Source: Lytechinus variegatus
Lineage: Eukaryota > Echinodermata > Echinoidea > Temnopleuroida > Toxopneustidae
DNA: 64,000 nucleotides
Assembly (NCBI RefSeq): GCF_018143015.1
Contig: NC_054743.1
Coordinates: 38,024,922-38,088,921 of the forward strand
Direction: 5' to 3'
The notes beneath the pieces were generated by a model. The model saw nothing but the letters and a program-made list of their open reading frames with translations, did no database searches and was not told the DNA's origin. This document shows, one piece after another, positions 17,716 to 58,293 of the stretch (positions within the stretch are counted from its first letter, which is position 1; every line of letters begins with the position of its first letter). The position numbers and the translations under genes are program-made.

Positions 17716-17774
17716 ATGAATATGGAAGGCAATTCAACAAATTCAACGACTAGCATAATCGTGTACTCTTCCAG
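17716..17774 (+). CDS. GPCR-A exon 1 (N-terminus)
   Basis: The 59-bp exon starts at ATG and encodes MNMEGNSTNSTTSIIVYSS, ending AG|GTATGT. Two NST sequons fit an extracellular N-terminus. Its phase 2 end matches the single-base phase of exon 2 exactly. It lies 4.5 kb from exon 2; the link is inferred from phase, sequons and the equivalent exon in GPCR-B. Confidence 0.65.
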
Positions 17775-20700
17775 GTATGTATCTTTAACACTTAATACAA
17801 CTTGGAATTTTATCTTTGGTGATGAGTAATTTGAAGGTGAAAAAGTGAATAGACTCACTCCAGTGATTACATGTATGAAGAGAAGAGTCGAAATCAATTT
17901 TAAAAAGTGTTATTTAAATGTAATAAGGCAGCTTTAACTCTTCGGGTGCATGAAGTTTTGTGGAGGAGGGCTGAGGACTATTCTAAATAACTTTGAAATA
18001 CTAGCCTATATCTAATTTATTAATTGAAATATTATTTTTCACAGACGCGCTGTGAGATGATCCTGCAGACAATATAAAATCTTGTTCTACTCTATACTCT
18101 TTAAAAAGTCGCTCTTAAAAGAAATATCACTCAATCGTATTCATACCATACTCTAAATTAGCGTAGCCTCACAAATATCCACACTCGCCAGTTAAATTTT
18201 TACTCTAAACTGCTATCTACAGCACCCGCACCTGCACCTCCATTCGGTAACGAACCGTTTTATGAGGCCGCCATCAATTTCAAGCTTAACCGCTCACGAT
18301 GGCGGTCTCCATCGTTCATTAAGTATTATTGTTATCAAAAAGTTATTTGAAATTTTTGCTCACATCGTTATTTTGTATTCATTATGCATTATGATTATCA
18401 TGTTTATGTTATGGACTATTTTGTATATTGCATATAATTATGACGTTTAATTGAATGAAGTACATTCATTTCCAACTATAAAAGCATCAATACATTTCAA
18501 GAACTTGAACAAAACATGGGAGGTAGCAACTCAGAAAGTACAGCTTGTGAGGAGTTCACACTGTAAAAACTGTGGTGTTAAAACTGACACCAAATTGGTG
18601 TTAATAGAGGACCACACCCTGAGGTGTTAAGATAACACCCTAGAGATTGAACATAACACCAAAGAGTGTAAATGTAACAACCAAAGGTGTTGTAATAACA
18701 CCTATAGGTGTAAAACTAACACCACCAATTTAACACCGGTGTAAAAAAAAACTGGTGTGGTCCTCTATGTACACCGGTTAACACCACAGTTTTTGCTGTT
18801 CACCGTGACAAAAATAATAAATACATAGTACATGAAAGAAAATATCCAAACGGAGTACAATACAAAACAAGGGGGAAATGGGGGGACAGGGCAACTTTAC
18901 ATACAAATACTAGTATATAATTTGAAACAGAAAATAAATTGTCAAACCAATCATCCTTCAACTAAAGCTATGAAGCAAATTCCAAAATTCAGGCACCAGA
19001 CGTAAGTTTCTTCTTAAGTTTTGTCTTAAAATTATTCAAAGTTGGTGCATTTCTGATGTCTGTAGGTGAATTGTTCCACTTTCTCGGACCCGAATGAGAC
19101 GAATATTATGTCGATAAGAATTACAGGTCCTGTGTCTTGGCAAATGAATTAATGAAGAGGAGCGTGTATTGTATTTATATAAATTCAGATTTGTATCAAA
19201 CAACTGAGAAAAATTAACAGGCATAAGCCGATTGTTACACTGTTAAATAGAAATACATTGCTGGTAGGTTGTAATATTTTCTAAAGTAAGCAGTTTAAAC
19301 TCATAGTAGAATGTGCTAACTTTAGATCTAGGGCTTACTCCAGCTATGATTCTAACTATTTTATTTTGTTTTGTAACAAGTTTCTTTTGGTTAGACGAAA
19401 ATGTACTACCCCAAACTAAGTTACAATGAGAAAAATATGGCAATATACGTGTGGAATACAAAATTCGCAATATATGAGCTGGTGAAAAGTAATTATATCT
19501 GGATGTTATACGAATAATAATTATTCTTTAATATTTTCTTTCTATGTTTTGTATGTGAAATTTCCAAGTTAATTTTGAATCAATGGTTACAACATGAAAA
19601 ATTGTTTTTCAACCTTAGGAATCTCAATGCTATTCAATTGTAATTTAGAACAATGAGTGTCGTATTGCTTGTTACGATTGCTAAAAACAATGAAGTAACA
19701 TTTACGAGGGCTGACAGATAGCCTATTTGCCTGGAACCACATGCACAGTTTAAAGAGATCTTTAGTTACTTGTTCTTGCAAGGAAGTTAGATCTTTACCA
19801 CTAAACAGCATATTTTTATCATCAGCATATAGTATGAATGATGGGATATTTGAGACATTTGCAATATCATTTATGTACCATATAAATAACAAAGGCCCTT
19901 ACAAGGACCCATGCGGAACACCACACAATATTTTCTTAGGTTCTGACAAACAGGTATTATATTTAGTACATTGCAATCGAATGGAAAGGTAGTTACTAAC
20001 CAACTAAATGCTATTCCTCGAATCCCGTATAGTGCTTTAAATGAGCTAACATGATATCATGATTATAGAGTATCAACAAATTCATTTAAATTATTATCAA
20101 TATTACATTTCAATTAATCAAGATTGAAATCACCCATGATGTATATCATTTTGTTATCTTTCAACAGGGGTAAAATCATAGTAGTCAAATGCTGCATTAA
20201 AGTTATTCAAATTTGCACTGGGAGGCTTACATACCACACCAATAACAATCTTTTTACCTGCTTGCTGACTAATTTCAATAAAAACAGACTCATAAAAAGC
20301 TCCATCACTTACAGGATCACGTCTCTCAAAATAGGAATACGTGTTTCTTACATAAAGGCCAACTCCACCGCCTATTTCTCTACAATTATTTGAACATACA
20401 GAGTTAAAACCTGTCACAATTGAAATTGAATGATTTGAACGCAGAAATAAAAACAAACAATCAAACTTCATAAACTGACCACAGCTTTATTGTTACACCA
20501 ACATCGACTGTGGTAGTAAGAATAGTCCGAGAAAAATATATTTTAGATATTAAAAAAAAAAGTTTTAAAATGATTGGTAATTTTTTTTTATAAATTGTAT
20601 ATGAAAAAAAAGAAAACATTGTACAATCGGGCAACATTATAGACCTGCGGATGTATAGATGATAGTAATTTCCTATTATTGTAGAATTCTAACTTGGGTT

Positions 20701-23700
20701 TTTTAATTATTATTTCCGTAATATATAGAGGTGATATCCTAGTTTCCCCCGGTCTACGGGCATTTCAATTTCAATTTCAATTCTTTTTTATTTCATTTCC
20801 ATTCAAAACATAATACAAAGTAATATAAAACAATACAAATCAAATACAATTTTACAGAAGGGCATTCTTACTTCGTAAAAAAAAAAAAAACAGTATAATA
20901 TAGAGCATAAATGGATATGGAAATGCACTTTTCTTGAAGGTTATCCTGGCTATCATCGATATTGTGTATGACAATTCTTTGAAAAGACTTAGTGAATAGA
21001 TTTGTTTCACTCTTATAAATTACAAATGCGGTTCGAAACATGTACACATTATGAGGACCAGTGTGTGATAACATGTTATATTGCGTCCATCGTTGAGGGA
21101 CAAATTTGAAAAGAATCACTGTCGCAATGACGGTTTATTAGGTCATAAAATGTTTTGAGTGCACTTTCGGCCAGCGGTGAAGGAACAAGTGCAAATTACA
21201 AATTCGCACTTGTTATTATTTACGAAGTATAATCACTGATCTAAGAAGAAAACAAACCTTACATACATATCGATCCTTTCATTTATTTTATAATGATAAT
21301 GACAATAATAATGAAATTAAATGTTGTAATTTTGTGAATTATGTTACATGGTCCTATGTATTCAGGATTAACCAACAACTGATGGGTTTTATAACTATAT
21401 CTCTTATTCATTGTGCAATATATATATTCTAAAGCTTAATCTTACTGTTTTCAAAGAGTGCAGATAGGGTTCATAATTAATTTTGGACAAATAATGCAAT
21501 ATATTCGTTTATAATCAATGTTAAAGGAAGCTTTTGTGGATCATCTTTTGATCTTTGTTTAATAGAATTTTGATAGTTTTAATAGTTATTGAATGGATGC
21601 TACAGTTTTTATTACATGCAGTATTGTATTATTATGATTTAATATAATGTATATTTTGAGTCATTTTTATGGTGCATTCTGGATGAATATATTAAGGTTC
21701 AGATACCCTCTCTTGGGTGCCTGGATATTCGAATGCACCACGGAAATGACGTTCTGATTTATGATATTACTTGTTTATTTAATAATATAATATATGATGT
21801 TTATTTTTATTTGTAATTCATGTTCGATTCGGTTTAGTCTTTCTATTTATCTATCTTTATCTCGTTAATATCATCATCATCATTATTATTATGATAATAA
21901 TTATCACCATCATCGGCATCGGGGTTTTTTTCTCCTCGGATATGTAACTCATTTTGATAAGTGCTCCTTGTCGTAGAATTTCACATGCTTGCTCTAATGA
22001 AATACATGTATCATCATTCAAATTTTACCACGTCACCACTAGCGTACCTACGTCATACCTTCTGGTACGACCGAATAATTTTTTTTTATGGCATGATTGA
22101 AGACCTTTCTTTTTCTTTTTTTTTTTTGCTTTTCAATTTTTTTTTATGGTACGATTGAAGACCTTTGTGATTGAAGACTTTTTTTTGCTAGTCAAATTTT
22201 TCGACCGGTTTTGCCCCCCCCCCCCCCGTGGAAAATCCTAGGTACGCCACTGCAAATCACAATGCCTTCAAGAACAATTCATATTTCTGTGGTATTTTTC
22301 TTCCTCTGCAGTTTGGTGTTGATCATGCTGGTGGCCCTACTAACGAACCTAACAGCACTGATCACAATCCTGCGGGTTCGAAGCCTCAGACAGACTCCCC
22401 ATAACCTACTCATCTTAAACCTGATTGTAGCTGATCTTGGAAGGGTTTTTCTGGTCATGCCCTTTTCTCTCAAATCAGTCTTTGATCATGGCGAAGGTTT
22501 GGAGGATACCTGCTGTAAGGTATATTCAATGAGCTGAGAGAAGGAGATGCATTGTAAATGCCAAAAGCAGTGGTGTCAAAATTACACCGGTCGTTGTTGT
22601 AATGGGACCGGCTCAAAACACTACACCGTGCTAGTACAACAATGATTGGTGTTATTTTCTTTGTTATATCGTAATCATTTGGTGTTATATTCAAACTGTG
22701 TTGTGTATTTTGACACTTGGCGTGCGGTTTCTTCATAACACCGACCAGTGGAGATTTTAACGCCATATATTTATAGTATAGACATTACATAAAAGCAATC
22801 ATACTTCCAATGTAATTATTAGTAATAGATGGAAAGTCGCTAGAATTCAAATCAATGGATAGTATCATGATCAAGTAAGGTATGAGATTTAAAAAGAAAG
22901 GTATTACAATAAAAATGTGTACACTGTTAAAAAAACCCTGATTTTACAGAAAAATAAAAGAAGATTTTGCAGAAAGCAATACCAGAATCATTCTTTAAAT
23001 TCATGAAACAGGAATTTTTCTGCAATTTAACAGAACAGGTCTGTTAGAAAAAGGGGAAAAGAGTGTTTTATTTAAGGAAATTTGTAAGATTACACACACC
23101 AAATACCAATTTCCTGTAAGATTACGAAATCTGGTAAGATTACAGGTGTTCTCGAGACTCTGCTGCAGGAACTTCTTTTAGTTTAAGGATAAATTTTCTA
23201 ACAGTGTAGGTCTTTTATAAATCTTGACCAGATAATAATGATTCGAAATTGTTGTTTTCGCAAAGGTTAAGCCCATGATCATGATGCAATACATTCCCTC
23301 AGTCCTTTATACGACATTATTTTAGCTATCATCAGCTGCAAGCACGTACAAGTAATTATTTTTTTAAGTGCTAAAAAATTACAAAAGGGTGATAGAAAGG
23401 GAGAAACAAAAAGAAAGAACAGCATCGAATATAGGTGACTGCATCATGTATGTATGATACCCCTAGTTAAATGGGAAAAAAAGAAAATATGTGACATTAT
23501 ATACACTAATACCCCACCCCCCTGCCCTCCCCACCCTCTCTCACACACACTCAATTGTTGAATTACCTGATGACGCTATGCACCTGACGCTATGCACTGA
23601 TCATGGTTGTGCTTAAAATCCGAGGAATCGTAGGAAAGTACTCGTAAGACGTAACAATTCACGTTTCAATCCGGGGATGGGGACATTTTCTCCATGCCCT

Positions 23701-25899
23701 GCTACGCTCGATATTGATGATTGTTTATTCTATATGATCACAGAGAAACGAGATTCCTGAGGAATTGAAATAAATGGTAGCATCTTCTTTTCAATCTTTT
23801 CATAACAGATTTTTGGTTTCTTTGCCCTCTCCTTTGGCTACACCCACTTCTTGACGATTGCATTCATCGCCGTAGATCGGGTTATTGTCGTCACGTCTTG
23901 CAACAAGTGTGGAATTTCCGATTGGGCAAGAGTTCGTGTCATGCTGACATTGACCTGGCTTATAGCTTCAACGATTTCTCTGCCTCCTGTCTTTGGAGCA
24001 TTAAATTCCGAATTTGGGTACACAGATGCTTTGAAGATGTGCCTGCCGCTTAATGGGACGAGGCTTTCCCTGAACATCCTGACAATGGTCACCATTCTTG
24101 GGATTGTACTTCCAACAATGATTGTTTCCTACACCGTCATAGCGGTTTTACTCTGGAAAAGGGATCGCAAGCTTACGCGAAGACGGCGACGTGGACTTAA
24201 ATCAACAGTGCGAGCTCGACCGGCAAGACCGATTCCCTCAAGTCCTGTTGGTCTACGAAAGGTGAAGTTTGATATCACATTTGCAGATACACAATCGGTT
24301 GATTTCGAGCAAAACACACCACAATGTCCTGGACAGCAGGTTTATAGCCCAGTGGCTACCACAGGACACATATCGCATGAAACTGAAAGATCAGTAGTAC
24401 AACCAATGGGTGAAGTAGAGGATTGTGAAGTTTCACTCGCTTGGAAAGACAAGGAAGTAGTGAAACGCAGAAGGAAAGGTGTAGTACTCGATGATGGATC
24501 AACTCTTACACGTGAGGGCGCTTCACGAGGAAGGTACGGCCTCGGGTCTCGGCTGAGTGCATTGCTGAATATCAAGCGAGAATCTAGCGCCAAAGAAGAC
24601 GCAGTAAATGATGGTGATGTCAACTGTGTCATCAAAGGATTTAAATCTGCACATGGAACTGGTTTCACTCCTGGTACCAGTCTATATACTGCGGCAACAG
24701 GAGAAGATGATATTGGTACGACTTACAGAACTGTCATTGAAACGCGAACAAGACGTTTGTCCAACCTCTTCGGCAGCCTCAAGGGTGTAGTCGGGCTTGG
24801 AAACCATGGCCGGGATTACAACGATGATGATGATGTCACTGAAAACTACAGCGAAGATGATGATCAGACCTGTGATTTCGATTCTGAACCATCTCAAACA
24901 ATTACCACTTACTCCATGTCACCATCTGGGGTAGATTTCACCACCGGCAAGGATGACGAAAGCGGGGAGGACGTCAAACGACCGAAGCGAGTCCGTCGGA
25001 GAACTCGAAAGACGAAGCTTGAAAAGTTGCGAATAGTGAGGCAAAGGAGAGTCGCATGGACAGGTAAAAGTGACGTCTAGGAGAAGATAGGATTATCTCA
25101 TATGATGGCAAAAAAGTAAAGGAAAGCACTTTCTTTCCGTAGGCTATACCACTGACCTTTTTTGTGTTTAAAGCATTCTTCTTTTTCAAAAATGAGAGTA
25201 TTCATTTTTTTATGATTTATTTCATCATGATTTGCACAAATACTGTGAACTTAAAGCCTCGTATACAATTTTCGTAATCACTACTACCATATAAAATATT
25301 AATGCTTAATACGTGTGTGGTGTTACGAATACTCTTTGCGCATGTTAAGAAAGACTTCCTTTCAGAGCAACTATGTCTAATACACCTCCCCCCACTTGTA
25401 AAGACTTTTTGAAAGCATGGTAGAATATTCCTAGGCCCTCTATTAGTAAGAACCGCTGCTCTGCACAGAAGAACATCAATTTAGTAACACATTTTTGAAT
25501 GGCCTGCAACAGATAATAGCCCCTGAGAATAGCTATTTTATTTCAGGTTCGGGTGGATACTCTTCCACAGCAAGGTAGTTTTAACCCTGGTCATAACATA
25601 TTGATGTTTTAAATAATAATTCTTTCAGAATTCAAACACTATTCAATCTTATTTTCCCTAAAGGTGTGCTACTGGTCTGTTGTAGTATCTTCTTCACTAT
25701 TCCACTTTTCATCTGGTACTGGTATTCATCCGATTCAACTTCGGAGCTGTTCGGGGTCCTGGCTGTCTGGTCGACGTACTGCATGACCATAGCGGATCCT
25801 ATGGTATACGCCTTTATGAACAGACGTGTTAAGAAAGAACTGCGAATGTATAGGAAAACGATGGCCAATTGCTTATCATGCACATGCAAAGGAGAATAG
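17716..25899 (+). CDS. GPCR-A: class A rhodopsin-like receptor, four exons
   Basis: Joining 17716-17774, 22312-22519, 23809-25063 and 25664-25899 gives a 585-residue receptor with intron phases 2, 0, 1 and GT/AG borders throughout. Residues 1-20 carry two N-glycosylation sequons (N6, N9). TM1-TM2 contain N1.50 (TNLTALI) and LxxxAD. The TM3 Cys pairs with the ECL2 Cys (LKMC). The DRY box reads D112-R113-V. TM4 has its Trp. TM6 lacks the usual CWxP (reads FFTIPLF), and TM7 ends DPMVY in place of NPxxY. ICL3 is very long (about 300 residues), basic at both ends with an acidic patch (YNDDDDVTENYSEDDD). Ligand and coupling are unknown. The layout (phase, GF..F...A.DR, YDP-type ECL2 in relatives) distantly recalls melatonin-like/orphan class A receptors; this is a weak guess. 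Confidence 0.85.
18556..18805. mobile_element. palindromic MITE-like element (AAAAACTGTGGTGTTAA arms)
   Basis: The left AAAAACTGTGGTGTTAA and right TTAACACCACAGTTTTT are inverted. A second inner pair (AGAGGACCACACC / GGTGTGGTCCTCT) is also inverted. The interior is full of GGTGTTA/TAACACC words. There is no coding capacity. A diverged relative may lie at 22569-22760. Confidence 0.7.
18830..20480 (-). mobile_element. decayed Jockey/CR1-type LINE inside GPCR-A intron 1
   Basis: It is antisense to GPCR-A. From 5' to 3' (right to left): an endonuclease remnant at 20154-20471 (CREIGGGVGLYVRN, GKKIVIGVVCKPP); an RT core at 19587-19892 (YADDKNMLFSG, WFQANRLSVSPRKC); then PYFSHCNLVWGS at 19243-19470, the usual RT tail; and the C-terminal NTRSSSLIHLPRHRT at 19036-19224. 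The RT N-terminal half is missing between endonuclease and YADD, so it is internally deleted and frame-broken. It lies wholly within an intron. Confidence 0.85.
22312..22519 (+). CDS. GPCR-A exon 2 (TM1-TM2)
   Basis: The acceptor is CTTCCTCTGCAG; the donor is AAG|GTATAT. It encodes TM1 (LVLIMLVALLTNLTALITIL), ICL1 and TM2 with the VADL motif, ending at the extracellular Cys before TM3. The acceptor context is the same as in GPCR-B and GPCR-C, which fixes the exon start even though an upstream ATG keeps the frame open. Confidence 0.85.
22520..23808 (+). other. GPCR-A intron 2
   Basis: GT...AG intron (TTTTCATAACAG at its end). It contains a possible GTGTTA-rich palindromic remnant (22569-22760) and a TA-flanked element (22922-23206). 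The remainder has no visible feature. Confidence 0.6.
22922..23206. mobile_element. TA-flanked MITE-like element (CACTGTTA ends), 285 bp
   Basis: CACTGTTAAAAAAA at the left is mirrored by TTTTCTAACAGTG at the right, each next to TA (22920-22921 and 23207-23208). The interior has repeated tttacag/ctgtaagattac words. There is no coding capacity. A related copy lies at 34838-35268. Confidence 0.7.
23809..25063 (+). CDS. GPCR-A exon 3 (TM3-TM5 and ICL3)
   Basis: One 1255-bp exon covers TM3 (IFGFFALSFGYTHFLTIAFI), DRV, TM4, ECL2 with Cys and an NGT sequon, TM5, and the whole long ICL3. The donor G|GTAAAA near 25063 is phase 1, as at the equivalent point in B and C. GPCR-B and C split this region with one more phase 0 intron just after TM5. 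Confidence 0.85.
25664..25899 (+). CDS. GPCR-A exon 4 (TM6-TM7, C-tail)
   Basis: The acceptor is TTCCCTAAAG. It encodes TM6 (VLLVCCSIFFTIPLFIWYW), TM7 with ADPMVYAF, a basic helix 8 (NRRVKKELRMYRK) and a Cys-rich tail (CLSCTC) that could be palmitoylated, then TAG. The Trp of CWxP is absent. Confidence 0.85.
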
Positions 25900-29740: not shown

Positions 29741-29867
29741 ATAAAAAAAGTAATCAATTGAAAACTAGCATAAGTCTCGCTTATTCGAAGTAATCTGTTC
29801 CATTTTCTGTACCCTTCAGTGACAACAACTGACGCACTCTAGCTAGCTTGGACTGTCTCAAACCAAA

Positions 29868-30530
29868 ATGGGAAGCAGTTCATCCAAAAGTAGTCGTAGC
29901 AGTGGACCCTCCTATTCCACTGATGTTGTGCTGTACGATCAAGCTGCTGCAAGGCAAGCGAGGTACCACAGCAAGTCAGATTTCACCTCTGCTACAGCCC
30001 TGAAGGATCACCTGAATCCAGGAGATCTGATTCAACAAAAAGGCGACACCATCAAAGAATGGTTTTACAGTCACTGGGCTGTTTACATAGGAAATGGTGA
30101 GATCGTGCACGTGACGGGGGTTGATGGAAGCTCTTCCAAAGCTGATATAATACGAGAAAACATGATTCTTGCTTTTTGGGATAAGAATGTGAGAAAGAAC
30201 AATCACATGGATGACTCCTTTCTTCCTAGAGGTACGAGAGAAATCGTACAAACAGCGAGGAGAAAGGTCGGCACCCCTTGGCGATACAACCTAATTTTCA
30301 AGAATTGTGAGCATTTCGCCTCTCTCTGCCGGTACGGTAGAGAAATCAGCCTCCAGTCTTTCGGACTTTCCGATGTCAAATCGGGGAATATCACATTTAA
30401 GGAATATCTTTGGTACCATGGGAAGGCCTTGAAAGAAAAGTGTTCAACGTTCTGTAGTTGGATCAAAAGAAAAGTTTCCAGGTTCTTGCCGGCTATTGGT
30501 ATTGGCTCCTATGATGCAATTGCCTATTAA
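29868..30530 (+). CDS. LRAT/PLAAT-like lipid acyltransferase-phospholipase
   Basis: The uninterrupted 220-residue frame carries an LRAT (NlpC/P60-like) domain at about 45-160. The catalytic triad is visible: H69 in SHWAVYIGNG, H81 in EIVHVTG and C147 in the NCEHFASLCRYG block, preceded by PGDLIQ. Family members are thiol enzymes that move acyl groups on phospholipids, retinol or N-acyl ethanolamines. The start MGSSSSKSS fits N-myristoylation (Gly2), hinting at membrane attachment at the N-end; vertebrate PLAATs instead use a C-terminal membrane helix, and here the C-end is basic with only a short hydrophobic patch (FLPAIGIG). A ttctgtacccttcag acceptor-like site 50 bp upstream suggests a 5' UTR intron. 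AATAAA lies at 30613-30618. It could instead be an LRAT-domain protein of unknown substrate. Confidence 0.88.
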   Translation: MGSSSSKSSRSSGPSYSTDVVLYDQAAARQARYHSKSDFTSATALKDHLNPGDLIQQKGDTIKEWFYSHWAVYIGNGEIVHVTGVDGSSSKADIIRENMILAFWDKNVRKNNHMDDSFLPRGTREIVQTARRKVGTPWRYNLIFKNCEHFASLCRYGREISLQSFGLSDVKSGNITFKEYLWYHGKALKEKCSTFCSWIKRKVSRFLPAIGIGSYDAIAY

Positions 30531-39992: not shown

Positions 39993-40496
39993 AGGTCAGT
40001 ATATAAACAAATTACAGCTCGCCCTCGCATTAATTCTTTTAGAAAGATACACATCTTTCTCACGATTACAAAAAAAAAATGCTCCGAATGCTCACTTCGC
40101 ATCTTGTTTCATGAAATGTCTACTAGTTTGAGCTTGCGATTCGCGCTTTCAACATCTCACAAGGATCATTTCTCGTATTATTTTTATTTTTATTACCAGC
40201 AGAAGCTGTTATTAAAAATGACATCCCCTCCAATACAAATCCTATTATCTAGAGGTTGCTCGCACGCTTCCAACACACTTGATCCCCTGCATCTTTAATT
40301 AAACCATTTGCCTAGGCAGCAATTGCTCAGATAAAATCGAAATTAGCCTATGCTTGATCAGGGCGCCTATATTCTTAATGAAATACATGCTTTGGCCCCA
40401 ACACACGCATGTATCATCGATCGTTATTACTATCATTGCATAATATCGTTTAATCTTGTAATGACAACATCGTTTTTGTTACCAAAATGAATTATT

Positions 40497-40918
40497 TTCA
40501 TTTTCGGAAATACGAACCTTATTTAATTTTCGGATTAACGAACCTTATTTCGTTTTCGGATTAACGAACCTTATTTCGTTTTCGGATTAACGAACCTTAT
40601 TTCGTTTTCGGATTAACGAACCTTATTTCGTTTTCGGATTAATGAACCTTCGGAATTACGAACCTTATTTCGTTTTCGGATTAACGAACCTTCGGAATTA
40701 CGAACCTTATTTTGTTTTCGGATTAACGAACCTTCGGAATTACGAACCTTATTTCGTTTTCGGATAAACGAACCTTCGGAATTACGAACCTTATTTCGTT
40801 TTCGGATGTACGAACCTTCGGAATTACGAACCTTCGGAATTACGAACCTTCGGAAATACGAACCTTCGGAATAACCGAACCTTCGGAATTAAGAAGCTTC
40901 GGAATTACGAATGTATGC
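40497..40918. repeat. right outer arm of large foldback
   Basis: CGGATTAACGAACCTTATTT-type units are the reverse complement of the left arm. The outermost part degenerates into 15-16-bp units (GAACCTTCGGAATTAC), ending CGAATGTATGCGG, close to the right end of the 16.17 kb element. Confidence 0.85.
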
Positions 40919-43156: not shown

Positions 43157-43401
43157 TTACAAAGGCTGTCTTGTTCCAAGTGACGTCACAGTACGCCACA
43201 AACTCCTGAAAGCTCGCTGCATCTCCGCCCTGAAGCTCCTGTTCACGAAGGCGTAGATGAGAGGGTCGATGAGGGAGTTACAATATCCCATCCACATGGT
43301 AAACACTCCCAGGCGAATGCTGTCGTGAGCAGCGATGAGTCTTGAGTGGTAGAGGAGGTATGGAGTCCAGCAAATCACCACCGCCATGACCAACAAAATG
43401 G
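43157..43401 (-). CDS. GPCR-B exon 5 (TM6-TM7, C-tail)
   Basis: It follows AG at 43403-43402 and completes the split codon from exon 4. It encodes AILLVMAVVICWTPYLLYHS, then GVFTMWMGYCNSLIDPLIYA, a basic helix 8 and a short tail ending RQPL before TAA. Confidence 0.85.
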
Positions 43402-43837: not shown

Positions 43838-46800
43838 TCCTCACCCGGACCATCCCTTTAAGGTATCCTAAATTGGCAAATATTGCGTATTGTTAAGAAT
43901 AAATCTTGTCACGGCATCGTACGAATATAATGTAAGGGACCATTTTAACGAGGAAGAATTTAGTCATTTATTGCTAATTTAAATGTGTCAACTTTTGTAT
44001 TATTATCAGAATAACAGTCACATTTGAGTCTTTTATTCATGGAGTACTCCAGGCTCGAAATAATGTGATTTGAATAAATAAAGTAAAATCAGACAAACTA
44101 AACACTGCAAATGTCACCAAATTTCGGACAAGGAATAGCAAAGTTACGACATTCTAAATTTTTGCATTATTTCTGTGGTTCTGTTCTACGCATGTCTTCA
44201 TGAGTATGCAATCAGCAAACTAATAGTGTCATAACCCCACTTCTCTTTTTGTTATTTATCATGTGAAATTACGTTTATTCAAATTTTGTCTTCCAAAACT
44301 AAAAAACATGGATTGACAACTGATTTAATGCGCACGACAATCATTGCCGCATTTTTTTTACAAGTGAGTTAATGACTCGATATGGCGCAATAGCTCAGAG
44401 GAGGCGCGATAGCTCAGCGGTAGAGCGGGGATGTTTATTCCCGTGACCCGGGATCGATTCCCACTTGGTGCGCTAGTGCCCTTCGGTAAGGCATTCATCC
44501 TCAGTACCAGGTCCTTCGGAGAGGACCTTAAGCCGTCGGTCCTCTGGTTGCTTGCTTACAAGCATTCATGCTTTCTTAGCAATCAGGTAAAAAATCACAA
44601 TCAATCAATCAATTCACATGTATGAAAATATGAAATATATATTCATGATTCATGTAATATAAACAACAGAGAAAGAGAGGACATGGCATCATCACCCTAT
44701 TGTAATATTCATGATGTCATTGCATATAAATGTTTTATACAAAATAATGCTTTAACTTTAACATTCAATAACTATGTTATTTATTCTAAAATTTTGGTAA
44801 AATTTTCAGCATTTTTGCTGGTTGAAATCAAATAACTCTATTTATTTAGATTTAATTATTTTCATCCCGGGTTACCCCATTTAAATCAAGAAAATGTAAT
44901 TACTTTCTCACCCAATATTGCAACTCTCTTGTGTGCGATATGCTTACGCTTCTCAATCTTCAGTCTATTCTTCCTTGCTGACGTCATGTTATTTGTCACG
45001 CTAGTATTGTCGCTAACTGGTTCGCTCATTACTTGATGATTTACATGGGGGTCAATGACCTCCACAACTCTCTCTTGGTTCGATGCGGCATGGTGTCTGA
45101 ATATCCAGTCCTAGGAGAAGAGAAAAAAATTCACTTTACTTGCAAAAGCTTCTTTACTATTTCCTGTCCACGCAACCATATTCCCTTTTTTTTTTTTTAA
45201 AGTGTCAAAGTTAACATGATGAACAGTGTTCCTCATAGAACATCACTTGGCGCCGGAAAATATTACACTAAAGTCTTTCTCGGGCCAATCAATGATCCAA
45301 TGCATCATCGAGAAAGAAATGAGACTTTAGTGTTTGGATGGGGAATTATAACTTCTACCATATTTACCCAAATCTGACCAAGTTTTGTCTAATTTGGCAA
45401 ATATTTTCAAGTAGTGATAATTCATGTGGTAATATGAGCGTATTTTAGAGAAAATTTCACATCCAAGCATAATTATGTATGCCCATTTGGAAAACGGATT
45501 TTCAAGTAAGTGGTTACTTCAACGCCTTATTCGCATCCCTTTTGTTCCAATTACTCACTATTTGAATAGTTTTATCGCCGTCTATAGAATGCATTCGACA
45601 ACACCTTTAAGCTAGACATTGTCAGATGGCGAAATTCAGATTTTGTCAATACCTGTCGTTTAGATTTACAAGCGCTCGTCTAGATCCTCGTTTACAATAT
45701 CAACCGAACACAGGCGTTTATGGCAAACGGTCTACCGTATCTCAAACGGTAGACCGTTGGTTAGACCAGGGGCCCGTTGCATAAAACTTTTTACCTGAAA
45801 AAACTCGGGTTGTTTTTACCGGAGTTTTTGCCATGTGTTAAAGTCAATGGCAGAAATCAGAATAACCTTAGTTTTCAGTTTTTACCGGAGTTTTCTCAGG
45901 TAAAAGTTTTATGCAACAGGCTCCAGGGAGCTGAGAGGAAGACCGTGTGGCAGGACCATAGACCCGTGTCCTGGGAACGATTCTTTTATTCGAGGAAAAT
46001 TTTGACAAGCAAAAAAAAATTTGGTTATTTAACATACCTATCAGATTTCCAGGGGGTGCTGCCTATGGTAAATAATAGACGCAGCCCCAGTAGCCCCGCT
46101 TCCCAGGGCCATGTCATATACCCGGATGTTAGCAAGACGAAATTGTAATGAATTTCATATTTCTAACCTCATTGCTTTCTTGTCGAGCGTTTCGTAATCC
46201 ATCTTCTGTTGGTTTAGATGCAACGCCCTCTGTTGGACCCGATGACACCGTCACAGTAGATGGTCCAGTCCATTTGGACGCTGCGTTCGACCTCGACAGG
46301 CAATGACGACTTAGTCGTTTTTCTTCCTTCCATAAGCGGTAAGTGATGACGACATAGCAACCAAGCAGGGATGGTACGAAAAATCCATAGTTCACTATAA
46401 TCGCGTTGATGCGGAATGACGCATCATCCCACCACTTGATCGAGCAATGGAGAGTTCCCGGATGGTAGCCGATGTACGATTCGTTCCCTCGTTTTGCCGC
46501 AACGGACGCGACGGTTGTTCCGACTAGCCAAGACGTGACGATCATGACGAGAACACGCACCCGGCTTGGTTGGAAATGGCGGGAAAAGACAAGGATAAGC
46601 AGACGATCCACTGCGATCGACAAGATGATGGGGAGATTAGTGAAGCTTAACATGATTGCCAAAAATCCTTGAACCTGTTTTATTAGAAAGATGGTAAAGG
46701 AGAATTGCTGCATATCTATTTCGCTCCGGTTTGTGTTTGTTTGAACCCCCCCCCCCTACTACAAATAGATCACAATAACAATGACTGCCATATTGCCATG

Positions 46801-49202
46801 ATTTAAGCATATGTCCTTGATATTATGATATTTGTGCTATTGAAATATTAATTTTTAACACTCCTGACCTACACCTTTTATCAGGTTAATGATAAAAAAG
46901 ATTAAGGAACGTTTCTCACTTCCATCTTTGAGCGAATAAAAGCTGTTTTAATAACTGAAGGGGCTTTCACAATTGCTTGTGCGATTGTTTGCGATCATTT
47001 GGTCACAATATATGTTGCACAGAATCGTAATTGGTGTTAGCAGTAGCACCACCAATTGTGAAAGGGGCTTCACCTAAACGACCTTAGGCTTAAATAATTC
47101 ATAAAGTTCACCTGAAATTCAGAACCAAAATTATCGATGTAAAGTGTATAAGAAATTTTAATTTCCCGTATCGTGAGCAATGGACACGAGGAAAAAGTAA
47201 ATTTACGTCACAGCATCTCTCAATGACAGCCAGACTAATAACCTTTCCCATTGTTTTCGTATTTTCAAGCATTGGGTGATTTCGCGTTTCAAATATTCAT
47301 AACTTTTTAGTACTTGTCCATTTTCGATCAAACTTTTAATGCATGATACGAAGATTTCCCTTCGTAGGGAAGACTATCAACGTTTCCAATGGTCTTCTCT
47401 TTTAAACGATTATATATGGCAAATACACAAACCCCTGTTGACTCTTACCATGCAAACACTTCGGTGAGAGCTCAGAAAGAACCCTTTATCAAAGACAGAG
47501 ACGAGGGAAAATACCATACTGCAGAGGACCACTCCCAGGTCTGCAATTGCCAGGCTTACGATGAGAAGGTTGTGAGGAATGATCCTCAGAGACCTCACTC
47601 GAAGAATTATGACGATAGTGAAGGTATTGAAGAGTAAGGATCCCGTCATGATCAACATTAGACTGTGTAAAAAAAAGGAAATAATAACACGCAACTTCGA
47701 TCTATACTCTTAAAACAAATCAGTCAAACTGACTAGACCAGTAGTCAGCTGGGAGCAACTGATATGGCAATCACTGATATTCACATTTCTGACATATATT
47801 CTAGTCAGAAATAACTCTGTTCTAGTAAAATATGACTAGAAAATAGTCAAATATGACTAGAATAACAGTTGCACCCAGCTGACCCCATTAACTAGTCGTT
47901 TTTGACTGATTTGTTTTTAGAGTGTATATAGTGCAAATTACAATTGAGTCCCATAGCGCTCTGAACTGGTACAGTAAGGAGTTTTGTCTCTAGACGCATG
48001 ACGGAATTTAAGAAATAACGAATATATTTCTAAATGCCTTCATGAGAAAGAGCAACCAAATAGTGTTTTTTTCGGAAATTGGTGAATCAAAACAGGAGTT
48101 TCGCCCTGGACTCTTGACGTATTTGCAAAACGTAGGACGACACTACTGCTCCGGTTCACCGTTTTTCGACAAAGCCTTCCAGCTGTTATTTGACGGAAGG
48201 TCCTTTTCAATACATTTGCTGCGTGCTTGAATCCATTTCTGCGTCGGGGTGCAAACACTCATTGGTTAGAACGAGAAAAAATACTAATTAAAGCCATACC
48301 CTTATAAAAATCTGAGACATAGAACTTCCTACACTGCATCATGGATGGGGGTTGTTGTTTTTGGGAAAGGTAAGACTTTGACTAGGATACGTAAAGGGCA
48401 GAATATATTTTGATATTATCAATTTAATTCATTAATGAAATCCACCCCGGATCTGCCCTTGCAATACCAATCGAAATCAGAAGGGGAGAGGGTATTTACC
48501 TGAGACTGGGAACTTCCTGTATTGCATCATGGATCGGGGGGGGGGTTGTTTTCTTTGGAAAAGGTAAGACTTTGACTAGGATTAATATATACGTAAAGAA
48601 CAGAATATTCTTTGCAAAGGCGGAAATCTCTTCCCAAAGGTAGGGTGACCAGGGGCCGGAAAAAAACCCAAAACAAAACAAATGTAAGGTCATTTCAACC
48701 AAAATAAATTTGACAAGCAAAACAAAAGAAAAAAAGTTATCACCGAAAAAGTTAGCTCATTTCGTCTGAAATGACATGTTTTATTTCGATTTTGAATGAT
48801 GTATTTCTTTCCATCATAAATACCAAAAATAGTAGGGGACATTTGGTATTGTGTCCCCCCTGTGATTTCTTCTCATGATTCTTTGAAATCCACCCCGGAT
48901 CTGCCCTGGCTATACCCATTGAAATCAGGGGAGCGTTTCATCAACATTTCTGTCCGACAAGTTGTCAGATCTGACAACTTTCCTTGATTTTGATTGGCTG
49001 ACAAGCACTGTTACTATGGTAACTGTCGGATAAAACGTCCGACAAGTGCTCTCATGAAACGAGGGAGGTGTATTTACCTGATGGACTGGAGAACCTCATC
49101 TGCTATCCCCAAATCTTCACTCGATTTGTAACCATGGTAACTGTCCTCATCTGTTGGATCGGTCTCCAATGTCATGGTAGTAAGATAAATTGTCGATTCC
49201 AT
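43157..49202 (-). CDS. GPCR-B: class A rhodopsin-like receptor, five exons
   Basis: Joining exons 49202-49078, 47662-47449, 46674-46168, 45110-44912 and 43401-43157 gives 429 residues with phases 2, 0, 0, 1 and GT/AG borders. The N-terminus (1-42) is acidic and has no sequon. TM1-TM2 lie at about 43-110 (SLAIADLG), the TM3 Cys at C112 with an ECL2 Cys near 190 (TLHCSIKW), and the DRY box as D136-R137-L. ICL3 runs about 233-345 and is basic near TM6 (KIEKRKHIAHKRVA). TM6 has CWTPYLL, and TM7 reads SLIDPLIYAF. Ligand and coupling are unknown. It is closest to GPCR-C (FSFTNLPIILSIA.DR and GVFTMW.GYCN.L.DPLIYA are shared). Confidence 0.85.
43619..43840. repeat. microsatellites (TG)n and (AC)n with pyrimidine-rich spacer
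   Basis: (TG)n lies at about 43623-43642 and (CA)n at about 43819-43837, with TC-rich sequence between. They sit in GPCR-B intron 4. Confidence 0.8.
44037..44884. mobile_element. large palindromic element with nested SINE, GPCR-B intron 4
   Basis: The left half (GAATAAATAAAGTAAAATC near 44075) and the right half (GATTTAATTATTT..CCCGGG near 44845-44875) are imperfect complements. It belongs to the same family as 520-1012, and 31745-31870 is a fragment. A tRNA-type SINE (44384-44617) sits inside. The right end lies just 28 bp from the exon 4 donor side. Confidence 0.45.
44384..44617 (+). mobile_element. tRNA-derived SINE with duplicated tRNA 5' end
   Basis: GGCGCGATAGCTCAGCGGTA (A box) and GGGATCGATTCCCACTTGG (B box) form a near-complete tRNA-like head at 44403-44473. 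A second partial copy of the 5' end (GGCGCAATAGCTCAG) precedes it. The body has CCTTCGGAGAGGACCTTAAG, and the tail is (AATC)n at about 44598-44615. It is a different family from the 32.0 and 51.1 kb SINEs. Confidence 0.8.
44912..45110 (-). CDS. GPCR-B exon 4 (ICL3)
   Basis: The acceptor TTCTCTTCTCCTAG precedes 45110; the donor is G|GTGAGA. It encodes DWIFRHHAASNQERVVEVID and ends KIEKRKHIAHKRVAIL, the charged segment leading into TM6. The frame and the HKRV motif match GPCR-C exon 4. It is too short for simple frame scans. Confidence 0.85.
45769..45924. mobile_element. palindromic MITE (GTTGCATAAAACTTTTTACC family), copy 2
   Basis: GGGGCCCGTTGCATAAAAC and its complement near 45905-45924 enclose the same core as the 39.84 kb copy, in inverted order. 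It lies in GPCR-B intron 3. A separate small hairpin (GGTCTACCGT..ACGGTAGACC) lies at 45729-45755. Confidence 0.85.
46168..46674 (-). CDS. GPCR-B exon 3 (TM3-TM5)
   Basis: It follows AG after AATAAAACAG and ends GAG|GTTAGA, phase 0 at both ends. It encodes VQGFLAIMLSFTNLPIILSI, A-V-D-R-L, TM4 with Trp, ECL2 with Cys and an NES sequon (RGNESY), then TM5 (YGFFVPSLLGCYVVI). Confidence 0.85.
47449..47662 (-). CDS. GPCR-B exon 2 (TM1-TM2)
   Basis: It follows TTTTTTTTACACAG and ends ATG|GTAAGA. It starts with the last base of a split Ser codon, as in A and C. It encodes TM1 (LMLIMTGSLLFNTFTIVIIL) and TM2 (SLAIADLGVVLCSMVFSLVS) up to the Cys before TM3. Confidence 0.85.
47707..47924. mobile_element. 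TA-flanked palindromic MITE (CTCTTAAAACAAATCAGTC)
   Basis: The left CTCTTAAAACAAATCAGTCA and right TGACTGATTTGTTTTTAGAG are inverted, with TA at both sides. The interior alternates GACTAG/CTAGTC words. It lies in GPCR-B intron 1, only 45 bp from exon 2. Confidence 0.8.
48290..48625. repeat. two-copy direct duplication in GPCR-B intron 1
   Basis: CTGCATCATGGATGGGGGTT..GGAAAGGTAAGACTTTGACT near 48333-48380 recurs near 48520-48580 with small changes (unit about 195 bp). The phrase AATCCACCCCGGATCTGCCC also occurs at 48439 and again near 48888. Confidence 0.65.
48928..49065. mobile_element. palindromic MITE next to the GPCR-B exon 1 donor
   Basis: The ends CGTTTCATCAAC.. and ..CTCATGAAACG, together with inner CCGACAAG/CTTGTC words, form a 138-bp foldable element. 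The flanks agggg/aggga may be a short duplication. It lies only 12 bp downstream of the exon 1 splice donor at 49077-49076. Confidence 0.65.
49078..49202 (-). CDS. GPCR-B exon 1 (N-terminus)
   Basis: The ATG has a strong context (GCCATGG). It encodes MESTIYLTTMTLETDPTDED, then SYHGYKSSEDLGIADEVLQS, and ends AG|GTAAAT in phase 2, which completes the split Ser codon of exon 2. The position, phase and open frame make it the likely first coding exon; there is no sequon or clear signal peptide. Confidence 0.75.
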
Positions 49203-49790: not shown

Positions 49791-49799
49791 GTACCATTC

Positions 49800-51375: not shown

Positions 51376-51439
51376 AGGTGTGAATTATACATGTAGAAGA
51401 GTTAAATTTGTGTGTATTTTTACGTCTAGGTTAATCAGT

Positions 51440-53175: not shown

Positions 53176-53405
53176 TCAGGATTGCCAACGTGCAAATGTC
53201 TTTCTTTTTAGCTTCCACAGTTCATTCCTGACTCGTCTGTTGAGGAGGGCATAGATGAGAGGATCCAAAAGGGCGTTGCAGTAGCCTAACCACATAGTGA
53301 AAACACCAAACCAATATCCCTCTGCCTCTCTGACCCGGATGAAATTTGAATGATACAACAAATATGGAGTCCAGCAGATGACAGTCGTGAAAACAAGCAG
53401 CGCTC
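53176..53405 (-). CDS. GPCR-C exon 5-equivalent (TM6-TM7, C-tail)
   Basis: The acceptor CCCCTCTTCTCCAG precedes 53405. It encodes ALLVFTTVICWTPYLLYHS, then GVFTMWLGYCNALLDPLIYA and a basic tail (RRVRNELWKLKRK) ending ARWQS before TGA. Confidence 0.85.
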
Positions 53406-56400
53406 CTGGAGAAGAGGGGTGGGAGAATAAGCACATAGAGAAAATATCAGTAAAAAATATTTCAAAAAATACAATGAAGGAAAGCGCAAAAACATGCTAA
53501 CCTCAAACATTTTGAATATACAGAAGTAGTATCTGTCATTTTTATTTTGAAATCTGACAGAAATTTGTGATTTAATGTCCACCGTTCTTGCGTCACCCGT
53601 TGGCATAGCTTGGCATAGCCACGAGTCACTGAAAATAAACAAATAATGAATCAAACATGTTTAACATGGAGTACGGGTCAAAATTTCACGTGGGAATGAA
53701 GCGATATTTAGGGCGAGGAAACTGTTCTTCTGATTTAAATCTAGATTTGTGATATAATTTGACATTATAATAAGATTTGTGGGTCTTTGAACTATTGGGA
53801 GTCCAGGCCCTCGGCTAAAGGACAGTGGTAGAACTTATGAACCTACATACTTTAGGTGTAACGAGTCGAAAAGGCAATTACATACCCCGGAGGCCACTTC
53901 CATTCAAGAGTGGATACCATGCGCGACCATGGGGCCTCGAAAAGCACCCTAAACACGTAATTTCCATATTCTGAAAATGCACCCCTTAACAAATATTGGC
54001 GTGTGAAACCCTACCCTTAACAAGTATTGGAAACAAAACGATACTCTTGGCAAATATTCCCTGAAATGAACCCCTAAACAAGTACAGGAATGTTTTATTG
54101 TTACGGGTCCTTTGGTTGTCGGCTTTACTTTATTTGGTTTAGTACGACCCCACCTTCTACACCTCGCGCAAATAGGACTCTAAACACGTAGTGTTGGGGC
54201 AAAAAGGACATCCTTTATAAAACATTTTAATTTTGTTTTATCATCCCCGCAAATTCGACCCTAAACGCGTAATTTTACTTTTTTTTTTATTTTTGTGTTT
54301 TTGACACCCTTTTCACGTTACGTACGTAACGTGCCCTATCGTGAAAAGGACATCCTTTTTACGTGTTTTTTGGTAGCGCATGGTATCCATTCGTCAATGT
54401 AAGTGGCCCCCCGGGCTACATACCCATAAGAATGACCCGTTTGTGGGCCTCATGGCGCTGCCGTCGACTCTTCATCTTTGCCTTTTTCTCCCTCCTCGTC
54501 GTCGAGTTGATGTTCCCGATACTGTACGACTCCCTACCGGAGCTGATATCGTCTTCATCATCGGCTGAATCAGGATGGCGTCTCCTCATGGCTGTCCGGG
54601 GAAGGGTCACCCCTGATTCCTACGAACGGGAATTGACAACATGCAGGCAGCAGGCTATAGAGTACCGAAGCGATGACGTCAGTTGCCATGGTGTCATGGC
54701 GGCCTGGTTCTAAACAAATGAACCCGGAATGAAAGCGTGTGTTTCTCATAGGAGAAAATGGATGCTATCGGGATGATTGCTTGCAACCTATTTTTCAGAC
54801 GAGCCAAAATGTGTACAGACGATCGTCAGGTGCGACTCTGTTTAGAACCAGCCCGCCATGACACCATGGCAACTGACGTCACACTTCAATACTTTATTCA
54901 TAAAACCTGCCCTTAAATTGATACAATAAGTAGAAATCAGTAAACAATTAAATGCCTGTAAGTCTACCAATCCGACTTCCAAAAATGAAATTAAAAAAGA
55001 AGAACCGCATCTATAGTTGTATTGTCTCTTTAATGGGGAATCGAACTGATATGAAAAGTTTTGTTTTTGGTTAAAAAAAAAGAGGCAGAGCAGAGAACCA
55101 ATTGGAAGGCTATTGGAATCTTAAAAGTTGCAAAATTATCTTGCTAGCTGATAACCATGGCAATTTTCAATTCACTGGCAGATGCCGGTGTATCGTGTGA
55201 TATTATCGTGCTGTAGGGGCAGGTTAAAGAGAAATAAAAGGAAACAAGGCAGAAAGAAGATATGAGTAAGAACAGAAGGGTCAGGGTCGTGTAACTATAT
55301 AATTCACCCTGCTATTCAAATGAGAACAAAAATGACGCCCCACCCCGTTATATGGCGCCTCCTATGTTAGCCATCTGAAAAAAGCTAAGTTTAAACAAAA
55401 TACGGTTGTATAGGCCTTAAGCTCTGATTGATTTAAAGGAGAATGAAACCTTTGGAACAAGATAGCATGTGTGAAAACAGACAAAAAAGAAACAGATCAA
55501 CGAAAGTTTGAGAATAAACAGACAAATAATAAGAAAGATCACTAATGGTATGGCAATGCGACAAAGTTGTGTGACGTCACTTGTGAACAACTGTCCCCAT
55601 TACTTTAGTATATATTTCACATAAACTGCCTCTTTTATCATATATATCAGTAGATCATGTGTTCTTTCTCTAGGAGGGCATGTAATACAAATTTTTAAAG
55701 AATACATCATGGATAAAGAGTTTGTATCGCCATAAGAAAAAGCAAAAAGAGACATTTTGAGGGTATTTTATAGTCCATCAAAGGGAAAGTTGTTCACATG
55801 TGACATCACACATCCTTGTCGCATTGCCAATGAGAGGATCTCCATGGCATTAATGATTGCAATATTAAAATGCTCATAACTTTCGTATTATTTGTTCCTT
55901 TTGTCTCAAACTTTCTTTGTACTTATTCTTAGATTTTTCTGTTTCGACACAAGCCTACTTGTTCCAAAGGTTTCATTCCCATTTAAAATTCAGAAATTAA
56001 AATAACCACGATGAGGATGATGTTGAAAAACGTTAATTGAATAAATTATTGTTTTTTGTTTTCATGCCACATAGAAACAAGATTTTGGTTAATTATTTTT
56101 AACGTGCTGCTTCAATTCAAATTAGTTCTCTTAATGGGAGGAAATCGATTTATGTTATATCCGGTAGTCAAACATTTATGATAAATGAATGCCTTAACAT
56201 GATTTAAACAGAATATGTTTTTGAACCCTAAGTTGATCATTCTTTCTGTATAAAGTGCGTCCCACACAACAAACGAAACCGAGATTTTTCGATGATTTAT
56301 CATAACTTAATGGACAAATCACTATCATTACAAAGCATAGAGTCTCCTCTTTCAGCTGGTATACTAAAGAAGATTCCTCATTCACGCATGAGTGAGTAAA

Positions 56401-58293
56401 AACAGTTCAAGGAAAGGATACCAAAACGTACGTCCCTGGCGAGGGGTAGCTCGGTTTCAAGAAAAAGTTAACATGCCTACAAAATTCATTATCTGCTCGT
56501 TCATTTTCTTTCATTTGAAACCTCAATCACAGAAATTTTTTAAGAAATAAACTTCTGTTTCTTCGAAGTGATGCCTGAATTTCCACAATTTCTTTAAAAA
56601 CAAATATTTTTCAACCTGTTTCCGACCAAAGCAATCGCATGGTTAACAAAAGACTTCATGCATGACGGAGTGTCAATAAAACAGAGTGTCGAGTAAGTCT
56701 GACCGCTAACCTGGTAAATCTCGTCAGTTTTCTAAATTATTTCAAGCCTTATTTCAAATGAACGGAACTCTGGTATTTCTCAAGCGCTATCTTTCTCCCT
56801 GGACCCCCATGACAAACGATATCATATACGGAATGCATGACAATGGGAAAGACAGAGGAGTGACGGAAGAAAAACATAAGCATTCGGGAATCAGAACACT
56901 CACTTCACACAAGTCCATCGACTGGCTCAGGCTCTTATTTGGCATATTCGACAACGACTTCAAAGTGGACATGGAGGACGAAAGCTGGTGGCTTCGAAGA
57001 CTCAGGCCCTCCTTCCTAATGAAGTGCGCGATGACGACGTAGACAGCGACCAGACACGGGAGCGTCACTCCCAGATAAAGAATGCTACAACCGAGTCGAA
57101 GGACGTCATTCTCCCAGATCCGAGTGCAGTGCTTCGTGCTGGGGTCGTACTCGTACCCGATCACCAAACCGATGGATGCTATGAATATCCCGACGAGCCA
57201 GGACAAGGAGACCATGACCAAGACACGGCTACGGTTTGGAGGGTACCGGCGGGACAAAACGACGATAAGGAGACGGTCGGCGGCGATGGAGAGAATGATG
57301 GGAAGATTGGTGAATGAGAACATGATGGAGAGGAATCCATTCATCTGAAGGTGAGAATAAACAGAAAAGGTTCTACTTGTTACTCCTTATCAAAACCATT
57401 TAAAACCAAAATCGTTACTTAATATGTTAAAAATGCGGTATGGCGTTATTATTTCCTCTTTAAAACAAAATCCCCAAAGGTTTCGTACAGAACACACATT
57501 TTTTCAAGTCAAAACCCAATAGATTGGTCCTCTTTTCTACCAAAATTTGCCCATGAAATTGTCATGTTTCTGTAACTTTCACAACTGTTATTTAGGCCTA
57601 CAAGCCACAGAAAATACATACAGAACTAAAATCGACTGCAGAAATGTGGTTTTGTTGAAAAAGCGCCCTATGTTTAATCATGAACTACTTAGAATTGCCC
57701 AAATAGTAAATGTAAGACAGACAGACATCAATGACCTTTGGTTTGCAACTTTGCATTTCCTTCATTTTTAGCCTGACTTTTATAACTTTTTGCGAAAATA
57801 AAGCAAACATTAACCAAAATCCAAAGATTCCATAACTTTCATATTTATATCCAGTTTTAATCAAAGTTATCTCTGCTGTGCTTGATACTTTTCTATGTTT
57901 CAAATGACATTTGAAAAAACTTCCTCTCAGATGTGTGGACTTTGCAGTGAAAGCACTGCGCGATATATCATCAAACTCCGTAAGTCAAATGTTTACAAAA
58001 GTGCACCTGACTTCAAAATGCCCCTATTACCCAAAAGTCTAACTTAGTATACATTCTAAAAGCGGAAGCCTTAACTTACTTTGCACACATCATCGTGATT
58101 TCTCAAAAAACTTCCACCATCGAAGACAGAAGCCAGTGAGAAGGTCATACTGGCCAGCGCCACACCCAGATCCGCAACGGACAGGTTGAAGACCAAGATA
58201 TTATGGGGACTCTTTCTCAGGTTGCGTACACGTACGATGATGGTGATTGTAAGGATGTTGAAGAGAATCGCTCCAAGCATAATGATAATCAAG
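53176..58293 (-). CDS. GPCR-C: class A rhodopsin-like receptor, exon 1 not found
   Basis: Exons 58293-58080, 57344-56904, 54619-54424 and 53405-53176 join with phases 0, 0, 1 to give about 360 residues covering all seven helices. TM2 has SVADLG, the TM3 Cys is in DVCK, and the DRY box is A-D-R-L. ECL2 has YDPSTKHC, TM6 has CWTPYLLYHS and TM7 reads ALLDPLIYAL. ICL3 is basic near TM6 (RRQRHEAHKRV). The first exon begins with the third base of a split codon, so an N-terminal exon must lie further right; none could be chosen, partly because that DNA is repeat-filled from 58946. All visible frames are open, so the gene looks functional. Closest to GPCR-B. Confidence 0.82.
54424..54619 (-). CDS. 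GPCR-C exon 4-equivalent (ICL3)
   Basis: The acceptor is CCCGTTCGTAG and the donor G|GTATGT. It encodes ESGVTLPRTAMRRRHPDSAD, an acidic stretch DEDD, and then RREKKAKMKSRRQRHEAHKR. A stop in frame just upstream limits the exon start to the AG at 54621-54620. Confidence 0.8.
54674..54881. mobile_element. palindromic MITE with TGACGTCA arms, GPCR-C intron
   Basis: TGACGTCAGTTGCCATGGTG at the left and its complement at 54862-54881 are the ends of about 43-bp inverted arms (continuing TCATGGCGG.CTGGTTCTAAA). Each arm carries a CRE-type TGACGTCA. It lies 54 bp upstream of exon 4. Confidence 0.85.
55432..55987. mobile_element. palindromic element (AATGAAACCTTTGGAACAAG ends), 556 bp
   Basis: TTTAAAGGAGAATGAAACC..GGAACAAG at the left is answered by CTTGTTCC..GGTTTCATTCCCATTTAAA. 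The interior carries inverted GTGACGTCAC/GTGACATCAC and GACAAAGTTGT/CTTGTCGCATTGCC pairs. There is no coding. It lies in the GPCR-C ICL3 intron. Confidence 0.8.
56253..56775. mobile_element. truncated CAGTGCGTCCC-family element
   Basis: It starts AAGTGCGTCCC after TA and shares ACGAAACCGAGATTT, ATTCACGCATGAGTGAG and AAAGGATACCAAAA with the element beginning at 58946, then shares GTGTCGAGTAAGT.. and TCAAGCCTTATTTCAAATGA with 63690-63890. The right terminal repeat is lacking. It ends about 130 bp from GPCR-C exon 3. Confidence 0.7.
56904..57344 (-). CDS. GPCR-C exon 3-equivalent (TM3-TM5)
   Basis: The acceptor TTCTCACCTTCAG precedes 57344; the donor is GAA|GTGAGT. It encodes MNGFLSIMFSFTNLPIILSI, A-A-D-R-L, TM4 (SLSWLVGIFIASIGLVIGY), YDPSTKHC and TM5 (GVTLPCLVAVYVVIAHFI), ending with a Ser-rich start of ICL3. 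Confidence 0.85.
58080..58293 (-). CDS. GPCR-C exon 2-equivalent (TM1-TM2)
   Basis: The acceptor GTTATCACATCAG precedes 58293; the donor is AAA|GTAAGT. The single leading base completes a Ser codon as in A and B. It encodes LIIIMLGAILFNILTITIIV, ICL1 and NLSVADLGVALASMTFSLAS, ending at VCK. Confidence 0.85.

Follow-up and report, generated by a model that had tools for sequence, protein, structure and literature searches.

Three split-exon receptor genes in the window

The window, that is, the whole stretch of 64,000 nucleotides analysed here (C4:38,024,922-38,088,921, from a 33-contig assembly that totals 869,567,369 bases), contains three class A G-protein-coupled receptor (GPCR) genes between positions 17716 and 58293, all with open frames: receptor A on the forward strand and receptors B and C on the reverse strand. 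We lean, if only slightly, towards reading them as apparently working members of a dispersed, lineage-expanded class A family that has its own exon plan and is probably chemosensory. In the COX1 gene of contig C33, AAA stands for Asn, AGA and AGG for Ser and ATA for Ile, which corresponds to an echinoderm-type mitochondrial code; the same code is also used by flatworms.

An earlier note on this window had described the three genes as split-exon class A receptors, and they are present with canonical AG and GT splice sites at the exon ends, and the joined exons, whose joins are predicted from the sequence, give a single final stop and no frame remainder. Against the Pfam family 7tm_1, the joined exons scored 117.5 bits for A (E 9.6e-34), 95.9 bits for B (3.5e-27) and 93.0 bits for C (2.9e-26), B and C having been joined for that search without an exon of the third intracellular loop (ICL3) described below; all three exceed the curated cut-off of 30.5 bits, which places them in class A. 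They also share the intron phases (2/0/1) that had been reported as identical: a phase-2 acceptor before transmembrane helix 1 (TM1), a phase-0 intron directly after the cysteine of TM3 and a phase-1 acceptor before TM6.

Receptor A measures 586 codons from its ATG, stop included. This ATG, at position 17716, opens a predicted N-terminal exon of 59 bases (17716..17774, +) with two N-glycosylation sequons and a phase-2 donor, which is also open in the second genomic copy of the gene. The scan for such an exon, over 10,312 bases, returned 5 candidates, which use 2 donor sites, on the gene strand and none on the opposite strand. The same scan gave 0 candidates each for B and C, and it does yield false candidates, since 4 appeared on the control strand for B. 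TM1, TM2 and the first extracellular loop (ECL1) of receptor A are encoded at 22312..22519, between a phase-2 acceptor and a phase-0 donor. Exon 2 (23809..25063; 1,255 bases) has a phase-0 acceptor and covers TM3-TM5 and the whole long ICL3, about 296 codons past TM5, which it spans unbroken to a phase-1 donor; within it, ECL2 (23992..24075) is highly different between the two genomic copies. Exon 3 (25664..25899), with a phase-1 acceptor, encodes TM6 with T at 6.48, ECL3, TM7 with DPMVY and the C-terminal tail.

On the reverse strand, B and C comprise 388 and 360 codons, respectively, from TM1 on and with the stop included. Their exons for TM1, TM2 and ECL1 lie at 47449..47662 (B) and 58080..58293 (C), each with a phase-2 acceptor and a phase-0 donor, followed by the second exons at 46168..46674 and 56904..57344, which encode TM3-TM5 and the first part of ICL3 and have phase 0 at both ends. 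Because an exon 2 that ends in phase 0 cannot join exon 3, a missing exon was sought, and one was found in each gene, at 44912..45110 in B and 54424..54619 in C, with a phase-0 acceptor and a phase-1 donor; once it is included, the frames of both genes close. This additional ICL3 exon ends in HKRVAIL in B and HKRVILM in C, the counterpart of RQRRVAWT in A and of the KRVALT-like ends in other members of the family. The last exons (43157..43401 in B and 53176..53405 in C), with a phase-1 acceptor, encode TM6, TM7 with DPLIY and the C-terminal tail. The three genes of the earlier note are present, and B and C each have an ICL3 exon that it had missed.

Receptors A, B and C all have N1.50, D2.50, C3.25, R3.50, W4.50, P5.50, P6.50, P7.50 and Y7.53. 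They also have the two motif changes ascribed to them before, Asp for Asn in NPxxY (D7.49) and DR[V/L] for DRY, in the form of DRV and DPMVY in A, and DRL and DPLIY in both B and C.

As for the surroundings of the receptors, an LRAT (lecithin retinol acyltransferase) domain is encoded by an open frame between A and B (29865-30527, +; E 5.6e-22). A 291-codon repeat-like open frame at 36225-37100 (-) had no Pfam match at E 0.01, and neither had open frames at 19243-19898 (-), upstream of A's TM1 exon; the latter contain a YADD-like stretch and look like reverse-transcriptase remnants. Both orientations are seen in the three repeat arrays at 16293-16571, 37575-37936 and 40496-40911, whose one related unit of 42 bases (and 26 bases) is of the TTCGTTTTCGGATTAACGAACC type.

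A dispersed family with shared introns

Protein searches of the genome with B, C, A and one further member (locus S) as queries recognised 20 split loci of the family, a lower bound, so that at least 20 are spread over six contigs. Besides A, B and C, contig C4 carries D (34.63M), E (42.42M) and F (44.52M). Seven loci are on C1, namely G (96.48M), H (96.51M), I (22.18M), J (86.146M), K (86.135M), L (79.54M) and M (77.66M), and three on C10, namely N (6.72M), O (24.288M) and P (24.295M); the others are Q on C11 (18.30M), R and S on C15 (31.462M and 31.448M) and U on C17 (29.19M). Seven of the loci (A, B, C, E, F, G and H) have a second copy that was not added to the count, and neither were an isolated exon 1 in the vicinity of S, an isolated exon 3 in that of K and weak short-frame matches, for example at C5:44.30M, C5:45.79M, C9:9.66M and C13:27.63M. 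Six short patterns from exon 2 of one member found no relatives in viral contigs and, in a separate collection of genome contigs, a single 21-residue match, which was judged to be due to chance on a contig judged bacterial.

The exon-3 acceptor is in phase 1 in 20/20 loci, the exon-2 acceptor in phase 0 in all 19 loci where it was found (that of M was not) and the exon-1 donor in phase 0 in 19 of the 20, the donor of P lying beyond the sequence inspected. A phase-0 intron at the TM3 cysteine and a phase-1 intron just before TM6 would constitute the exon plan of the family. Eight loci (A, B, C, D, E, G, H and I) have a phase-2 acceptor immediately before TM1, and in ten others (F, J, K, L, O, P, Q, R, S and U) the TM1 exon includes an upstream in-frame Met; locus M has both, and the first exon of N has an odd start. 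Locus L has one further intron within exon 2.

Exon 2 of locus M is incomplete, and a stop replaces residue 3.49. The second exon 3 by K and the lone exon 1, which lies about 4.4 kb from S and is almost identical to S's own, look, like locus M, as signs of decay or copying within the family. It is very improbable, however, that some or all of these genes are decaying relics with frames that are open by chance. The stop in M, the odd start of N and the stray exons near K and S would fit such relics, as would the loss in A, alone in the family and in both of its copies, of W6.48; on the other hand, the open frames of A, B and C are long (586, 388 and 360 codons), their splice sites are consistent in both copies and A is under purifying selection outside ECL2.

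Trees were built from 20 family rows (the second copy of A and 19 loci, that is, all but M with its incomplete exon 2) and an outgroup of 27 intronless receptors from the same genome, comprising 7 of the 8 loci returned by a genome search (one near-copy was dropped) and 20 chosen from its list. The split-exon rows fell on one side of a branch that separates them from the intronless receptors, with a support of 100/100. B and C were sisters, at 95/91 in the tree with the outgroup and 93/89 in the second tree, in agreement with the closeness reported earlier. Receptor A, described before as divergent and inverted relative to B and C (+ versus - strand), joined I, D and E at 100/99 in both trees, and holding A, B and C as one clade was rejected (p-AU 0.011, with A on a long branch and the test sharing the model's pull on such branches). 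Given that A groups with I, D and E and that a clade of A, B and C is rejected, the window contains one tandem pair and one more distant relative from a dispersed family, rather than the purely local expansion proposed initially. A would be a separate, fast-evolving member that lies near the tandem pair by chance. The eight members with a phase-2 acceptor before TM1 but no upstream Met, together with the second copy of A, formed one clade (100/99 and 99/99), and so did the DR[V/L] members (96/86 with the outgroup and 81/78 without it).

D7.49 is found in 18 of the 20 members, I and M having N, and in 0/27 sampled intronless receptors, all of which have N in the TM7 motif; four of these hold a DPxx[YF] string, outside TM7. 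The difference gives a Fisher value of 4e-11, in a comparison where the members are related to one another and the sample favours high 7tm_1 scorers. Among non-olfactory class A receptors, almost 20% carry D7.49 (PMC7460885; here and below, articles are cited for those of their parts that were accessible). Judged by sequence, DPxxY marks the family, yet it is not new to class A. Hence, of the family-specific motif change suggested earlier, the Asp stands as a marker without being exclusive, and DR[V/L] is restricted to 6 of the 19 readable members, where position 3.51 is taken by Y (9 members), F (4), V (4) or L (2). D2.50 is present in 19/20 members (M has S) and R3.50 in 19/19 readable ones, and the conserved class A positions are kept across the family in 19 or 20 of the 20 members, or in all readable rows.

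Placement within class A and probable role

A PDB profile search with nine members gave 5-HT1B, 5-HT5A, octopamine beta2 and 5-HT7 first (about 1e-26), followed by rhodopsin, melatonin, QRFP and galanin receptors, among the best 60 of 628 matches; with single queries, the first match was alpha-2A for B, octopamine beta2 for C and TAAR7f for A. The family is thus similar to aminergic and alpha-group receptors (5-HT1B, 5-HT5A, octopamine beta2, alpha-2A and the TAARs) in that these are its best matches among solved structures, but it differs from them in having D rather than N at 7.49 in most members and no Asp at 3.32. Asp 3.32 is the amine-binding residue, and membership of the aminergic group was rejected because A, S, T, V, N or G stands there in 19/19 readable members. 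Membership of the opsins was rejected because Y, F, C or S, and never Lys, occupies 7.43 in 20/20. A, B and C are filed as class A receptors, with no group assigned within it.

It is possible, although rather doubtful, that these are expanded receptors for an internal signal (a neuropeptide, an amine or a metabolite) derived from an aminergic or neighbouring class A group. The first PDB matches point in that direction, as does the aminergic-like W-x-G-Y-x-N in TM7 of B and C. However, Asp 3.32 is absent from every readable member, the profile scores of different receptor groups are close together, and about 20 loci with recent duplicates exceed what is usual for a single hormone system.

DPxxY is shared with the melanocortin receptors, GPR4, GPR65, GPR68 and GPR17 (PMC9464062, PMC7460885, PMC12187918). 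GPR17, with D7.49, has in addition DRF in place of DRY, like members G, L and R (PMC9464062), and GPR4, GPR65 and GPR68, all of which have DPxxY, are pH sensors (PMC12187918). None of these receptors is among the best 60 of the 628 profile matches, and the likeness, at one position, may be of independent origin.

In our favoured reading, that of a lineage-expanded and probably chemosensory family, A, B and C would reside in the cell membrane and bind an external ligand through the TM bundle and the extracellular loops. Signalling through G proteins would use the retained 3.49-3.50 pair, Y5.58 and DPxxY, and the two aspartates, D2.50 and D7.49, would lie at the place of the sodium/proton site. 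The weakest step is the chemosensory role: the family may sense environmental or conspecific chemical cues, by analogy with the expanded rhodopsin-type receptors of echinoderms, which occur mainly in tissues exposed to the environment (PMC7042368, PMC10855541). The family resembles these receptors (the surreal-GPCRs of sea urchins, the ApORs of the crown-of-thorns and the olfactory-receptor-like (OR-like) proteins of holothurians) in belonging to class A, in its many recent paralogues and in being lineage-specific and echinoderm (PMC7042368, PMC5442662, PMC10855541).

Several observations weigh against this reading. Echinoderm OR-like genes have been described as mostly single-exon and arranged in tandem arrays (PMC7042368), whereas the family described here, compared with them by description only, has two conserved introns in the TM core and is scattered over six contigs. 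The OR-like TM2 motif LxxPxYxxxxxLxxxDxxxxxxxxP (PMC7042368) was found in 0/21 family rows (the 20 loci and the second copy of A) and in 0/27 other receptors, in a search with no positive control. In addition, the best PDB profile matches are aminergic, which would fit an internal signal, and there is at least one apparently broken locus (M). In the literature searched, which largely excluded subscription papers, the original sea urchin paper among them, no echinoderm receptors were found described as combining this exon plan with DPxxY.

Divergence between the two copies of receptor A

Many of the receptor loci are present twice, on contig C4 between about 26.6M and 44.5M and in parts of C1 and C5. 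The duplicate loci on C4, and several on C1, are in mirrored order and on opposite strands, with positions on C4 that sum to about 71.1-71.3M, and several duplicate pairs on C5 are on the same strand. Such a pattern looks like two haplotypes that share a scaffold, or else an inverted duplication of very large size. The second copies of B, C, E and H (three exons) and G (exon 2) are near-identical to the first, with 0-6 synonymous differences per gene, counted in frames that run past some donors and with the second copy of F outside the comparison.

In receptor A, the nonsynonymous differences between the copies are concentrated in ECL2. Codons 62-84 of exon 2, which encode this loop, show 14 nonsynonymous differences, a single synonymous one and 4 gap codons (15, 1 and 5 with wider limits), compared with 6 nonsynonymous and 10 synonymous differences and 1 gap codon in the remainder of the exon (14:1 versus 6:10, p 0.002), where purifying selection is evident (6:10, p 0.0014). 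Exon 3 has 3 nonsynonymous and 0 synonymous differences and a 6-base in-frame indel at ECL3, and the N-terminal exon, compared by eye, has 3 nonsynonymous and 2 synonymous differences and a 3-base indel. Taken together, the outward parts differ from the inward ones (19:3 versus 9:10, p 0.017; 16:1 versus 9:10, p 0.003, without the N-terminal exon), for regions that were picked after the data had been seen and in one pair of copies only. Pairs of frameshifts were rejected as the cause, as the DNA alignment shows scattered substitutions with 9-base and 6-base in-frame indels in ECL2. Conversion from a third locus was considered as well: when 366 bases of A were searched against the genome as DNA, the two copies alone matched, although a donor that is missing from the assembly or too diverged for such a search may have escaped it.

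We regard the ECL2 difference as a lead, not as proof of selection. The outward difference is probably ordinary, the two copies belonging to an already divergent haplotype block or being old inverted duplicates whose loops are poorly constrained. In windows of 75 bases, intron 2 reaches 12 and 10 mismatches and ECL2 reaches 13; the 14:1 ratio of ECL2, taken alone, is within the neutral expectation (p 0.16 and 0.22); and four recent paralogue pairs of the family, in which the proportion of nonsynonymous differences is below that of synonymous ones (pN < pS) in every region compared, as under purifying selection, show no ECL2 excess. With a single pair of A copies to compare, what speaks against an ordinary origin is the strong enrichment of nonsynonymous change in ECL2 relative to the rest of the exon, the frame being kept by the indels in ECL2, ECL3 and the N-terminus, and the outward-inward contrast in regions chosen post hoc. 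It is unlikely, in our view, that A is a highly polymorphic recognition receptor, in which diversifying or balancing selection would keep the N-terminus, ECL2 and ECL3 different between haplotypes and the membrane core and the long ICL3 would be held constant. If that were true, the variable face of A would be in keeping with the recognition of cues from conspecifics, gametes or pathogens, and A would represent the allelic extreme within an echinoderm family that has an exon plan of its own and a two-aspartate core (D2.50 and D7.49).

A class A family expansion is a known kind of system, and what is particular here is the split-exon plan together with DPxxY and, possibly, the variable outward face of A. 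The family would represent split-exon receptors expanding in an echinoderm-type genome, in contrast to the mostly single-exon OR-like genes (PMC7042368). Introns also distinguish subclades of the family, one of which (99/99) coincides with the phase-2 intron before TM1. If the variable outward face of A is confirmed in a population, A would become a candidate allelic recognition receptor; otherwise, these genes would be an ordinary receptor family with well-resolved gene models.

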